This document shows positions 507 to 7,490 of a DNA stretch of 7,490 bases, piece after piece; position 1 is the stretch's first letter, and each line of letters opens with the position of its first letter. Source of the stretch: Gammaproteobacteria bacterium (lineage in GTDB: Bacteria > Pseudomonadota > Gammaproteobacteria > Pseudomonadales > UBA3067); NCBI GenBank assembly GCA_002402085.1, contig NVVB01000051.1, positions 27,158 to 34,647 on the forward strand. Reading direction: 5' to 3'. The notes under the pieces were generated by a model. The model saw only the letters and a list, made by a program, of their open reading frames with translations, was not told where the DNA came from and ran no database searches. Position numbers and translations under genes: made by a program.

Positions 507-1730
507 TCAACTCTGATGAACCAGCATTGAGTCATTAGTCGATAGATCACAACAAACACCATTTCTTCCTTGATGCTTCGATTGATAAAGGTTTTTATCC
601 GCCGCACGAATGAGCTTGCTATAAGCCCCCTCTTCCTCAGGAATCTGCGTAGTAGCCCCAACGCTAACGGTCACCACATTCGTTGCCCTAGAACCCGCGT
701 GGGGAACACACAAAGAACGAATTGTCTGGCATATTTCTCTTCCAAGTAGCAATGCGTCCTCTTGCTCCATATGCGGTAAAATTAAAGCGAACTCTTCTCC
801 GCCGTATCGAGCCACTTGGTCCCCAGGCCTACGACAGAATGCACGCAAGGCCGTAGCAATTTTCTTCAAGCATTCATCGCCCGCTTGATGACCATAGGTA
901 TCGTTATATAATTTAAAATAATCCACATCGATCATAAATAAAGTAATGGAATACTGACCTCTTAAAGCACGCCGCCACTCATCCAACAAAACGTCATCAA
1001 AGGTGCGTCGATTTGCTATGCCTGTTAACGCATCACTAGAAGCAATAGTTCGAAGGTAACGATTAGATTCCTCCAAAGCCTCTTGCCGTCGATCCAACAA
1101 TCGACGACGTAAATAATTTTTTCGCGAAGTTCGATCCAAAACATAATTGGATACCAAACTGATCACACATACCATCAACAACACAAGTAAATCAGCCCAC
1201 AACAAACCATCGGAAACGGGTGAATACCCGCCGTAAATAATGACAGTCGCAACCACCATCACCACCGACACTGCCACAGCGCCTTTAATTTGCATTCGAG
1301 TCGCCGTGAGCCCTGCCATGATAATCAGCAATACCCCAGTATAATAAATATGTCCTTCAGCGCCGGCACTAACCACCGACATCAATAGGATGCAAATACC
1401 ATTAAGCGTAAAAAAGCTAACCAGACAAAGCTGCTGATAATTAATGGATTGAGCCGACATTGAAAAAGCGACAATCACTAAGTTTATAGGCAGAAAATAT
1501 TGGAATCGAATTTTCCATAGCTCAAGAACGCTTTGCTGCGCAATGATTGCATCTAGCCCGGCAGCCAAAACGAAAAAAACCAAGCCAAAGATCAACGCAC
1601 CGCGCACCTGTCCATGATAACGACGCCGATAATGCGCCTGGTAATTGGCCTCTAAAGGCCCAGAAAATCTAATTTTGCCAGCCCCCTCATACGTACTGAC
1701 AGGGAGTCCTTGTGGCGAGTCATATCTCAT
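507..1730 (-). CDS. Membrane-anchored GGDEF diguanylate cyclase
   Basis: 407 residues. It makes cyclic di-GMP from two GTP at the inner membrane. The N-terminal half (about residues 42-197) has five or six hydrophobic segments (near 43-63, 80-93, 101-122, 128-142, 149-168 and 178-197) and acts as an uncharacterised membrane sensor; I recognise no named sensory domain. A charged, probably coiled-coil linker (200-230) leads to a complete GGDEF domain. Visible landmarks are DALTGIANRR at 233-242, metal-binding D268 with VDYFKLYND, HQAGD at 281-285, and the active site GGEEF at 310-314. The inhibitory I-site R301-P-G-D304 lies exactly five residues before GGEEF, so product feedback inhibition is expected. 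The ATG at 1730 is the first possible start after an in-frame TGA at 1740-1742. Its ribosome site is weak (AGGTG about 12 bases upstream), suggesting low expression. The product class is certain; the signal sensed is unknown. Confidence 0.93.
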   Translation of the reverse strand: MRYDSPQGLPVSTYEGAGKIRFSGPLEANYQAHYRRRYHGQVRGALIFGLVFFVLAAGLDAIIAQQSVLELWKIRFQYFLPINLVIVAFSMSAQSINYQQLCLVSFFTLNGICILLMSVVSAGAEGHIYYTGVLLIIMAGLTATRMQIKGAVAVSVVMVVATVIIYGGYSPVSDGLLWADLLVLLMVCVISLVSNYVLDRTSRKNYLRRRLLDRRQEALEESNRYLRTIASSDALTGIANRRTFDDVLLDEWRRALRGQYSITLFMIDVDYFKLYNDTYGHQAGDECLKKIATALRAFCRRPGDQVARYGGEEFALILPHMEQEDALLLGREICQTIRSLCVPHAGSRATNVVTVSVGATTQIPEEEGAYSKLIRAADKNLYQSKHQGRNGVCCDLSTNDSMLVHQS

Positions 1731-3992: not shown

Positions 3993-6602
3993 ATGGCAGT
4001 CAGCGAAAAATCTCCCACCCAACACACTCCAATGATGAAGCAGTACTGGAGAATCAAGGCAGACCACCCCAACGAGCTGCTTTTTTATCGCATGGGGGAT
4101 TTTTATGAACTATTTCATGATGACGCAAAGAAAGCGGCCAGGATCCTAGACATAACGCTGACCAGCCGGGGTAAATCTAATGGTCAGCCAATCCCAATGG
4201 CCGGCATCCCGTATCACGCGGCTGACAACTACATCTCTCGATTAGTCCGCAAGGGAGAGTCTGTCGCTATTTGCGAACAAGTCGGTGATCCTGCCACCTC
4301 CAAGGGCCCCGTTGACCGGCAAGTCGCCCGAGTCGTCACCCCAGGCACCATTAGTGACGAAGCGTTTCTTGACGCTAAGAAAGACAACTTATTAGCCAGC
4401 CTATTTATCGTAGCCAATAGCTCCCCGTCCACATCCGGCGAACAACAGGCCTGCGGCACCGCATCATTAGACATCACCTCCGGACGCTTCGAGATATCGG
4501 ACCACGACTCCATCGAGGCAGCCCTCGATGAAATCGACCGACTCAGCCCTGCCGAGCTATTAGTCCAAGATGAAATCAAACTGCCTCCCAGCTTACAAAA
4601 TCGAAGCGGGATACGAACACGCCCTCTATGGGAGTTTGATCTAGAGAATGCGCACATCAAGCTATGCCAACAATTCGATACCCGGGACTTGAACGGATTT
4701 GGTATTGAGGGACACGACCTGGGGTTAATTGCTGCGGGCTGCTTAATGCAGTATGTAAAAGAAACCCAACGCACCACCCTGCACCACATCAACTCTATTC
4801 AAGCAATCAATCAAAATCACTTCGTTACCCTTGATTTGGCCACCCGTAAAAACCTTGAGCTAACCACTACCCTAACGGGCGAAACCGAGCATACACTCGC
4901 CTGGGTCATGGACAAGACTTCTACCGCCATGGGCGGGCGCTTAATACGACGCTGGCTCAACCAACCCCTAGCCAACCGCGAGGCCATCACTCAGCGCCAA
5001 GACGCAGTCTCAGACCTATTAGAAAGCTATCAGTTTGAAGCACTACAGCCCGAGCTCAAAAATATCGGCGATATCGAGCGAATATTAGCAAGAGTCGCCC
5101 TAAAGTCAGCGCGTCCCAAAGATCTCGCACGCTTGCGAGATGCGCTAAGCACACTGCCTGCGCTACAAACACTACTCGCGCCCCAAAACACGCCCTTACT
5201 TGAAACACTAAAAACACAGATTTCAGAATTTCCTGAAATCCACCAACTCCTAGACAGCGCAATCATCGAAAACCCGCCCATGCTAATCCGGGATGGTGGG
5301 GTAATTGCGGAAGGCTATGACAGTGAGCTCGACGAGCTTAGACAACTTAAGGACAATGCTGGACAGTTCCTTCTTGATTTGGAGAATCGCGAACGTGAAG
5401 CCACAGGCTTATCCACCCTCAAGGTGGGCTATAACCGAGTACACGGCTACTACATTGAAATAAGCCGCATGCAATCCGACAAAGCCCCCGACGCCTATAC
5501 TCGTCGACAAACGCTCAAAAACGTCGAGCGTTTTATCACCCCCGAATTAAAAGAATTTGAAGACAAAGCTTTGAGCGCTCAAAGTCGCGCATTAGTGCGA
5601 GAAAAGAGCCTCTACGAGCAATTGCTCGACCGACTAATCAATGAGTTATCGCCCTTACAGCTTTGCGCACAAGCCATTGGTGAACTGGATGTGCTGAGTA
5701 ACTTTGCAGAACGGGCCGATACACTTTGCTACTGCAAACCCGCCTTTACCAGCGAGAGCGGCATCGACATCCAAAAGGGCCGCCACCCAGTGGTCGAGAA
5801 AGTCATTGACGACACCTTTGTGGCTAACGAATTAGCGCTTAGTGACCAACGTCGCATGCTAATCATCACCGGGCCAAACATGGGTGGTAAATCGACCTTT
5901 ATGCGACAAACCGCATTAATCGTCCTGCTCGCGCACGTTGGCAGCTTCGTGCCCGCAGAAAAAGTTACCCTTGGCCCAGTCGATCGTATATTTACCCGTA
6001 TTGGCTCTTCAGACGACCTCGCTGGAGGACGTTCTACATTCATGGTGGAAATGACAGAAACCGCCAACATCTTAAACAATGCCAGCGATAAGAGCCTTGT
6101 ATTGATGGATGAAATCGGCCGAGGAACAAGCACTTTCGATGGCCTCTCTTTAGCCTGGGCTTGCGCGACCTATTTATCCAAGACCCTGTCCTCCTACACC
6201 TTATTTGCCACCCACTATTTTGAGCTCACACAACTGCCAGAAACCCTCAAGAATGTTGATAATGTTCACCTTACTGCGACCGAGCATGGCGATAAGATCC
6301 TATTTCAACATCAAGTACAACCTGGACCCGCCAACCAAAGTTACGGCCTGCAAGTAGCTCAGTTAGCCGGTGTTCCTAAGTCGGTAATCAAGGATGCCAA
6401 GCAAATCCTTACCGAACTTGAACGTTCGTCCTCATCAACGCCCACCAAAAGCATCCCTGCACCAGAGCAAGTAGACCTATTTTCCGCCCCCCCTCCGAAT
6501 AGCAAGGCAATGGAGTCTCTTGCGGACTTTAACCCCGACGAAAGCACCCCCCGACAAGCCCTTGAGTACCTTTATCAGCTCAAAAGCATGCTCGATTCGT
6601 AG
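3993..6602 (+). CDS. mutS: MutS DNA mismatch repair protein
   Basis: 869 residues, full length. MutS scans DNA for mismatches and small loops, then recruits MutL in an ATP-dependent way. The N-terminal mismatch-recognition domain contains the Phe-X-Glu wedge F37-Y38-E39 within MGDFYELF. The connector, core and clamp regions follow (about 130-560). The ABC-type ATPase has Walker [10 protein letters not shown] (627-635), [16 protein letters not shown] (672-687), Walker [14 protein letters not shown] (702-714) with D706-E707, and the switch histidine in FATHYFEL (738-745). Near the end, QVDLF (826-830) looks like the beta-sliding-clamp binding motif, and [16 protein letters not shown] (852-867) matches the C-terminal tetramerisation helices. 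The ATG at 3993 puts the conserved HTPMMKQYW at the usual position. It is followed by fdxA, a pairing also known in Pseudomonas. Confidence 0.99.
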
Positions 6603-6627
6603 TTTCTTATAGATACGCTATTCTTAA

Positions 6628-6656
6628 TTGCCAGCCTAATTAGAAAACATTACACT
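6628..6656 (+). promoter_or_regulatory. Probable fdxA promoter
   Basis: TTGCCA (6628-6633, five of six matches to TTGACA), exactly 17 bases, then TACACT (6651-6656, four of six matches to TATAAT). Transcription would begin near 6663, about 28 bases before the fdxA ATG. The mutS-fdxA gap is only 88 bases, so fdxA probably receives both this promoter and read-through from mutS; no terminator hairpin was seen after mutS. Confidence 0.5.
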
Positions 6657-6690
6657 ACGCGTCAATTTAAGGTTGCCAGGAGTTTTCACC

Positions 6691-7014
6691 ATGACATTTG
6701 TAGTAACGGACAGCTGTATTAACTGTAAATATCTGGATTGTGTTGAAGTCTGTCCCGTGGACTGCTTTTATGAAGGCCCAAACTTTCTGGTAATTCATCC
6801 TGACGAATGCATTGATTGTGCGCTATGTGAACCAGAGTGCCCTGTAACCGCCATTTTCTCAGAAGATGAACTCCCTGACGACCAGCAAGAATTCACTGAA
6901 TTAAATGCTGAGCTTGCGGAAAAATGGCCCAACATTACTGAAAACACCGGCCCACTGCCCGACGCAGATGAATGGGACGGTGTAGAAGACAAGATTAAAT
7001 TATTGAAAAAATAA
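6691..7014 (+). CDS. fdxA: FdxA, seven-iron ferredoxin ([3Fe-4S][4Fe-4S])
   Basis: 107 residues, the exact length typical of this family, whose best-studied member is Azotobacter vinelandii ferredoxin I. It is a small cytoplasmic electron carrier. Counting the initiator Met, C9, C17 and C50 correspond to the 3Fe-4S ligands. C21, C40, C43 and C46 correspond to the 4Fe-4S ligands. C12 and C25 are the two extra conserved cysteines. The motif [14 protein letters not shown] (39-52) is textbook. I chose ATG 6691 because AGGAG (6678-6682) precedes it by eight bases and family members begin MTFVVTD; a TTG at 6673 would add six unsupported residues. The acidic C-terminal half ends in KIKLLKK. It is followed by a structured 3' UTR and a strong terminator. 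Confidence 0.97.
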
Positions 7015-7016
7015 TA

Positions 7017-7073
7017 CCGAACTGCGCTCAGTATAAAGGGCTCACTGAGCCCGCCTCAACACGCAGTCCTCGG
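7017..7073 (+). other. Nested RNA hairpin in the fdxA 3' UTR
   Basis: Directly after the fdxA stop, CCGAACTGCG (7017-7026) can pair with CGCAGT (7062-7067) and, across a two-base CC bulge, TCGG (7070-7073), giving ten outer pairs. Inside it CTCAGT (7027-7032) pairs with ACTGAG (7044-7049). An alternative, mutually exclusive hairpin pairs GGGCTCA (7038-7044) with TGAGCCC (7046-7052). No T-run follows, so this is not itself a terminator. It may protect the mRNA 3' end. Pairing was assigned by eye. Confidence 0.45.
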
Positions 7074-7108
7074 CATTAGAAAGTACAGTGCGAATTATAA
7101 ACACGCAC

Positions 7109-7141
7109 AAAAAAAGGACGACCAATTGGCGTCCTTTTTTT
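7109..7141. terminator. Bidirectional intrinsic terminator shared by fdxA and the small RNA
   Basis: Perfect 12-bp arms (7109-7120 and 7130-7141) surround a nine-base loop. Each arm is GGACG plus a run of seven A or seven T, so the core GGACG/CGTCC stem is followed by seven T on either strand. Read rightward it ends the fdxA (mutS-fdxA) transcript; read leftward it ends the GGA-rich RNA. Confidence 0.93.
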
Positions 7142-7143
7142 GT

Positions 7144-7162
7144 TTTTCATTTAAAATGAAAA
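7144..7162. repeat. AT-rich palindrome inside the small RNA gene
   Basis: TTTTCATTTAAAATGAAAA is a 19-base palindrome with a single central base. In the small RNA it can form an AU-only hairpin (about seven pairs, five-base loop) between the GGA-loop hairpin and the terminator, acting as a spacer stem. Confidence 0.55.
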
Positions 7163-7259
7163 TGCGGCCTCCATGGCCATTACTACTCCCTGTATATCTC
7201 CCTGAAGGTTAAACCCTTTAACCACTCTCCCTTGCATCCATCCTTAGCTGCATATTAAA

Positions 7260-7287
7260 ACTATAGTTGATAACTTCTCGCTAGCAA
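7260..7287 (-). promoter_or_regulatory. Promoter of the GGA-rich small RNA
   Basis: On the minus strand TTGCTA (7282-7287, four of six matches to TTGACA) is followed after 16 bases by TATAGT (7260-7265, five of six matches to TATAAT). Transcription would start near 7253, a dozen bases before the first GGA motif, giving an RNA of typical Rsm size. An imperfect palindrome CTTGCTAGCGAG overlaps the -35 element. Confidence 0.5.
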
Positions 7288-7295
7288 GTCATGCC

Positions 7296-7312
7296 GGTAA
7301 TTAAACCTTACA
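7296..7312 (-). promoter_or_regulatory. Candidate GacA-type activator site upstream of the small RNA
   Basis: The minus strand reads TGTAAG-GTTTA-ATTACC. The first half is identical to the GacA box half-site (consensus TGTAAG-N6-CTTACA). The second half matches four of six bases, with a spacer of five rather than six. It is centred about 50 bases upstream of the predicted transcription start. This is plausible but degenerate. Confidence 0.35.
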
Positions 7313-7490
7313 AAACCAATAAAATCGAAATGCGCGCGATCAAATATTTATTACTGCCCAGGAAAAAATCAAACACCTGGACTTAAGAATTCTAAAAAAC
7401 AGCACTCACTGGTAACACCTGAAAAATCAAACTCAAAAACCAGCATTAAAAACGGTGCAGTCTTTTCAACAAACGTCCTCCAAAAGAAGC
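7313..7490. other. Upstream regulatory DNA with no gene seen
   Basis: AT-rich DNA between the activator-like site and the right edge; no ORF or RNA gene is supported. Two sequences each differ by one base from the IHF consensus WATCAANNNNTTR: 7338-7350 and 7367-7379. A motif GAAAAA(A)TCAAAC occurs at 7362-7374 and again at 7421-7432, with ACACCTG next to both copies. CCAGG/CCTGG arms (7358-7362 and 7376-7380) could form a weak hairpin. IHF input is known at some Gac-controlled small RNA promoters, which makes these sites worth noting, but the matches were found by eye. Confidence 0.3.

Follow-up and report, generated by a model that had tools for sequence, protein, structure and literature searches.

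The window, which is the whole 7,490-nucleotide stretch of DNA analyzed, ends where its contig (C67) ends. A second contig (C74) repeats window positions 5975 to 7490 at 99.7% identity and then extends further, and over the two contigs the locus order is rpoS, element 1, element 2, fdxA, mutS (Table 1). Sequence analysis shows that the interval between rpoS and fdxA holds two GGA-rich elements, with element 2 (minus strand) as the inner one and element 1 as its outer neighbor. Both elements are present, in unchanged order, in G001, the single congener that was compared with the window's own genome (G000). In a MutS tree the window joins G001 and groups with none of the named genera. The first 163 bases of C74 (L139:1-163) mismatch the window's mutS, which suggests overlapping assembly or a mixture of strains and does not demonstrate a duplication. 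An nlpD-like frame was recognized by eye beyond element 1. Elsewhere in the window a diguanylate-cyclase-like frame with a GGEEF motif (positions 507 to 1730, minus strand) adjoins recX-like and recA frames, all recognized by eye only.

Table 1. Features of the rpoS-fdxA interval and its flanks (window coordinates unless a locus is named)
Feature	Position	Strand	Basis
mutS, upstream of fdxA	3993..6602	+	Frame; named by eye and MutS tree
fdxA (ferredoxin), flank of interval	6691..7014	+	Frame search
Element 2, predicted ~145-nt CsrA-sponge small RNA	7109..7253	-	7 ANGGA and body identity with G001
Element 2 intrinsic terminator (hairpin, T run)	7109..7141	-	Fold; 25/33 identical in G001, stem kept
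GGCC-AUGGA-GGCC hairpin	7166..7178	-	Sequence, G000 fold, G000+G001 consensus fold
5' hairpin with AGGA in loop	7233..7252	-	MFE and centroid of G000, consensus of G000/G001; MFE of G001 alone differs
Promoter-like site TTGCTA-16-TATAGT of element 2	7260..7287	-	Promoter scan; 35/42 block identity with G001
T-rich tail just after element 1 terminator hairpin	7480..7490	-	Window 7490 = L002 1678
Element 1, GGA-rich, body beyond window	L139:1684-1832	-	10 GGA; ends 6 bases past window
rpoS	L139:2274-3512 on C74		Profile match 512 bits, cut-off 394

The initial annotation had described seven GGA motifs on one strand within about 145 bases, six of them in A(N)GGA form. A motif count confirmed the seven and their clustering, but the number six required correction because all seven fit A-N-GGA. 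The ANGGA count was reached by none of 2000 dinucleotide shuffles (mean, 1.39). The raw GGA count is a weaker signal, which 63 of the 2000 shuffles reached. When both strands of the whole window were scanned, only minus-strand stretches starting at about 7096 to 7169 held at least six ANGGA per 145 nucleotides. The GGCC-AUGGA-GGCC hairpin sequence and the two CAGGGAG copies that had been noted are also present in element 2.

The element had further been described as bounded by a candidate promoter and a strong terminator. The terminator held up, as a strong stem followed by a run of T residues; it is not listed by a simple terminator scan because the stem has an internal mismatch. The promoter-like site places the predicted start of element 2 near 7253 but is near chance by itself, as three such sites were found in 591 bases against 1.1 expected from shuffles.

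The predicted fold of the whole of element 2 is more stable than that of most shuffled sequences (z = -2.26; 5 of 200 shuffles were equally stable). The minimum free energy (MFE) folds differ between G000 and G001. In the G000 ensemble two of the GGAs occupy hairpin loops, another three are largely unpaired, one (the second) is mostly paired, and one is buried in the terminator. The buried, seventh GGA has an unpaired probability of 0.00 and should not be counted as a binding site, leaving at most six that are usable. None of the 29 pairs in the consensus fold is changed on both sides, a count that comes from two near-identical sequences (G000 and G001). Element 1 has 10 GGAs, a number that none of 2000 shuffles reached, and its fold is unremarkable (z = -1.10; 24 of 200 shuffles).

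The initial annotation had looked to the Rfam models for confirmation, and none of them accepts element 2. No Rfam model, including PrrB_RsmZ (RF00166), matched anywhere in the window at its gathering score. The best E-value on element 2 belongs to a sponge family, CsrC, whose score of 16.7 bits is far below its gathering score of 61; in the clan match table a weaker RsmZ match overlapping that of CsrC would have been omitted. Element 1 scored 18.9 bits for RF00166, for which the gathering score is 44, and the model had no match in the window's own genome at E ≤ 0.001. Across 56 genomes RF00166 gave eight matches at E ≤ 0.001, one of them over the cut-off and none in the window's family; in a control set 2 of 14 matched below the cut-off, so weak matches carry little meaning. 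Among 40 further sources searched with Rfam at gathering scores, RsmZ matches were found in three Pseudomonas-type loci (L017, L018, and L049), at 117 to 125 bits.

Those three loci bear on the position of the elements. The proposal that element 2 lies where Pseudomonas keeps rsmZ proved correct, as Pseudomonas rsmZ is reported to sit in the rpoS-fdxA interval (PMC4353343) and the Rfam RsmZ matches were found there. What element 2 has in common with RsmZ/PrrB of Pseudomonas is this interval, the strand, and the anatomy of a short GGA-rich RNA with a terminator. It differs in scoring below the gathering score and in having no conserved GacA box. The description of element 2 as an RsmZ/CsrB-like RNA is supported in the sense of an RNA that would work like RsmZ, on the basis of anatomy, place, and partner proteins, and is not supported, on the Rfam scores, in the sense of an RNA that is RsmZ.

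The partner proteins were sought in the window's own genome, which the initial annotation had expected to encode CsrA/RsmA and GacS/GacA. CsrA is encoded (121.2 bits; cut-off, 73). For the other two the best models are the expected ones but the scores fall just under the cut-offs: a GacA-like frame adjoining uvrC, which contains Ns, has GacA/UvrY as its best model (263 bits; cut-off, 280), and a GacS-like hybrid kinase of 1015 amino acids has BarA/GacS (789 bits; cut-off, 890).

GacA boxes were scanned for in 18 fdxA loci, allowing two or fewer mismatches to TGTRAG-N6-CTYACA. Box-like sites were found in 14 of the 18, against about 0.1 to 0.3 expected per locus; that of G001 is inside rpoS. 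There were no mismatches in G036, L017, and L119 (G046), and one mismatch in G002, G004, G031, L018, L032, and L068. At this threshold none was found at G000, L069, L073, or L121. Outside the scanned set, G035 carries a perfect TGTAAG-N6-CTTACA recognized by eye. All that remains of the box in the window's genus is its left half, TGTGAGATATT, upstream of element 1, and 17 of 20 columns of this region are kept between G000 and G001, compared with 44 to 52% around it (P = 0.0007 and 0.007). The half site lies 187, 187, 186, and 186 nucleotides from the predicted start in G000, G001, G002, and G004, respectively, where the start is that of element 1 in the first two and of a single long predicted RNA in the last two. 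This distance is near that of the GacA site of Pseudomonas aeruginosa rsmZ, reported at -196 (PMC4950607), and therefore element 1, which carries its box-like half site at about -187, is likelier than element 2 to be the counterpart of rsmZ. Element 1 would then probably be under GacA control.

No conserved GacA box (TGTAAG-N6-CTTACA) common to G000 and G001 was found upstream of element 2. A 17-base TGTAAG...TTACC near element 2 in G000 is absent from G001. With its own promoter-like site but no conserved box, element 2 would therefore escape direct GacA control. The -10 sequence of that site, CTATAGT, is one base off the CTATACT reported for RpoS promoters (PMC2375449); it resembles the stress-sigma type, and dependence on RpoS may be inferred from this resemblance. 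A strict GacA-box pattern occurs at two places in the whole own genome, compared with four for a reversed control, and no further Gac-type small RNA was found by this search.

RsmV and RsmW of P. aeruginosa are described as short sponge RNAs that GacA does not control directly (PMC7366521 and PMC4950607). RsmW of P. aeruginosa, as reported, has seven GGAs and binds RsmA in vitro (PMC4950607). Element 2 is likened to these RNAs as a predicted short sponge-type RNA that would be free of direct GacA control. However, RsmW comes from the 3' untranslated region of another gene, elsewhere, whereas a promoter-like site of its own precedes element 2, which lies beside an RsmZ-like element. Adjoining Rsm RNA genes are also on record, in the form of the tandem rsmX-1/rsmX-2 of P. 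brassicacearum, F113, and P. stutzeri (PMC7911923). According to that source the two copies share 75 to 81% identity, and each of them has a GacA upstream activating sequence (UAS) in P. brassicacearum. Elements 1 and 2, by contrast, have dissimilar sequences, occupy the rpoS-fdxA interval, and show a box-like site at the outer one only. CsrB and CsrC of enterobacteria, Pf1-3 of Pseudoalteromonas, and Aln1a-c of Alteromonas are likewise sponge RNAs with multiple GGAs, and multi-GGA sponge RNAs are reported to have been discovered through their motifs, promoters, and terminators, not through homology (PMC11882849 and PMC5864184). The counts given are 25 for Pf1, 21 for Pf2, 9 for Pf3, 22 for CsrB, and 14 for CsrC (PMC11882849); these RNAs are mostly longer and GGA-richer than element 2. 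An unlike pair of sponge RNAs at rpoS-fdxA was not found in searches of open-access literature.

Element 2 is very likely a small-RNA gene of the CsrB/RsmZ class, the inner of two elements, whose RNA is predicted from the sequence to bind and sequester CsrA (RsmA). Sequestration would relieve CsrA repression of mRNA targets. Transcription would proceed from the element's own conserved promoter-like site without direct GacA control. The unannotated RsmZ/CsrB-like RNA gene that had been proposed remains the best reading, given the conserved body, the retained GGAs, the csrA, gacA-like, and gacS-like genes, and the place.

Conservation was compared between two genomes, one of which is 74% complete. 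Element 2 sequence was found only in G000 and G001 in a DNA search of 293 genomes of the order. The body (first 95 nucleotides) is identical at 89 of 95 positions (94%), the promoter block at 35 of 42 (83%), and the terminator at 25 of 33. Neighboring genes are less similar (fdxA, 267/324 or 82%; mutS tail, 1078/1399 or 77%; rpoS tail, 75/95), and the spacers are about 45% identical (77/170 on the rpoS side and 32/75 on the fdxA side). The body is better conserved than fdxA (P = 0.0054), mutS (P = 3.3e-5), and the rpoS-side spacer (P = 1.4e-16). GGA loss in close relatives had been named as evidence against the gene; the one congener checked retains every one of the seven GGAs, with TAGGGAG in place of one of the two CAGGGAG copies.

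Element 2 is conserved throughout its body, at GGA and non-GGA positions alike, and more so than the GGA-richer element 1 (89/95 versus 95/132, or 94% versus 72%; P = 2.6e-5). Sponge function alone does not explain this difference, and the unexplained excess may leave room for an additional base-pairing role. It could be argued from the same data that the working CsrA sponge is element 1 by itself and that element 2 belongs to a different kind of conserved small RNA, for example one that base pairs with mRNA, with its GGAs partly incidental; element 2 also has fewer GGAs, of which two are in loops in G000, compared with 10 in element 1, of which four are in predicted hairpin loops. However, an ANGGA count above that of every shuffle, the retention of all of the GGAs, and a place and neighbor typical of sponge RNAs make this explanation unlikely.

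A chance GGA-rich spacer past fdxA, with the hairpin serving solely as the fdxA terminator, would account for the near-symmetric, self-matching hairpin on the plus strand, and for a raw GGA count and a lone promoter-like site that shuffled sequence can also yield. It would not be expected to keep its body and promoter block at 94% and 83% while the flanking noncoding DNA falls to about 45%, nor to hold more ANGGA than all 2000 shuffles, and we consider it very improbable. Equally improbable is that the stretch encodes a small protein, because the 28-codon ATG frame in G000 is cut to 11 codons by a stop in G001, the sole whole frame with a usual start common to the two (11 codons from the predicted +1, one residue changed) would be leaderless, the 23 codons that are free of stops in both genomes have no usual start, and no frame of at least 60 codons overlaps element 2 on either strand (the plus strand was scanned at this length). 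A coding reading was rejected because every minus-strand frame that has a usual start closes within 11 codons in one or both of the genomes.

The DNA beyond fdxA was examined in 130 loci. Eighty are named loci, chosen as the best FdxA matches, and 50 come from the 52 panel genomes that have an FdxA match; the two left out are G025, with a partial match, and G034, with a weak one. The named loci are Pseudomonas-heavy and a few overlap the panel, so the counts are not frequencies. Clusters were counted in the DNA before the next 110-codon frame, which misses some, such as L049 despite its Rfam RsmZ match. GGA clusters lay on the minus strand in 40 of the 130 loci and on the plus strand in 2 (P = 1.6e-11, with loci that are not all independent). 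Two or more minus-strand clusters occur in eight loci (L015, G000, G001, G002, G004, G024, G035, and G036). A terminator between units was detected in L015, G024, G036, and G001 among 110 loci, and in G000 by eye. The finder used (positive at 35 of the 110 loci) is rough: it missed the terminators of both G000 elements and took the element 2 GGCC hairpin of G001 for a terminator.

Two members of the window's family, G002 (L097) and G004 (L098), have instead of two elements one predicted RNA each of about 506 nucleotides with 27 GGAs. No internal terminator was detected in either, and Tandem Repeats Finder found no tandem array in L097. G031 (L100) has a predicted sponge-like RNA of about 607 nucleotides, some 170 to 780 bases beyond the fdxA end, which is partly built of seven copies of a 13-base motif (AGCAAGGAAGCTA). 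Its 40 GGAs exceed the 25 reported for Pf1 (PMC11882849), the highest of the published sponge-RNA counts consulted. The starts of the long RNAs in G002, G004, and G031 were placed by eye.

It is possible, although we hold it only tentatively, that several Pseudomonadales lineages have, between rpoS and fdxA, a CsrA-sponge locus growing by unlike serial units: an outer, GacA-controlled unit of RsmZ type and an inner, GacA-independent one that is possibly read by the stress sigma factor whose gene adjoins the interval. In the window's genus the inner unit, the more conserved, might set a floor of CsrA titration without Gac signaling. Were the inner RNA outside GacA control, a single locus would separate Gac signaling from CsrA titration. 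The two elements would be a pair of likely CsrA antagonists that Rfam models miss, in a Pseudomonadales lineage that the MutS tree links to no named genus, and the minus strand between fdxA and rpoS offers a position rule for locating such RNAs where sequence models fail. In a Pseudomonas-like genome, an Rfam TwoAYGGAY match over its gathering score (L049:3722-3846, plus strand; 58.9 bits) lies between fdxA and the RsmZ match.
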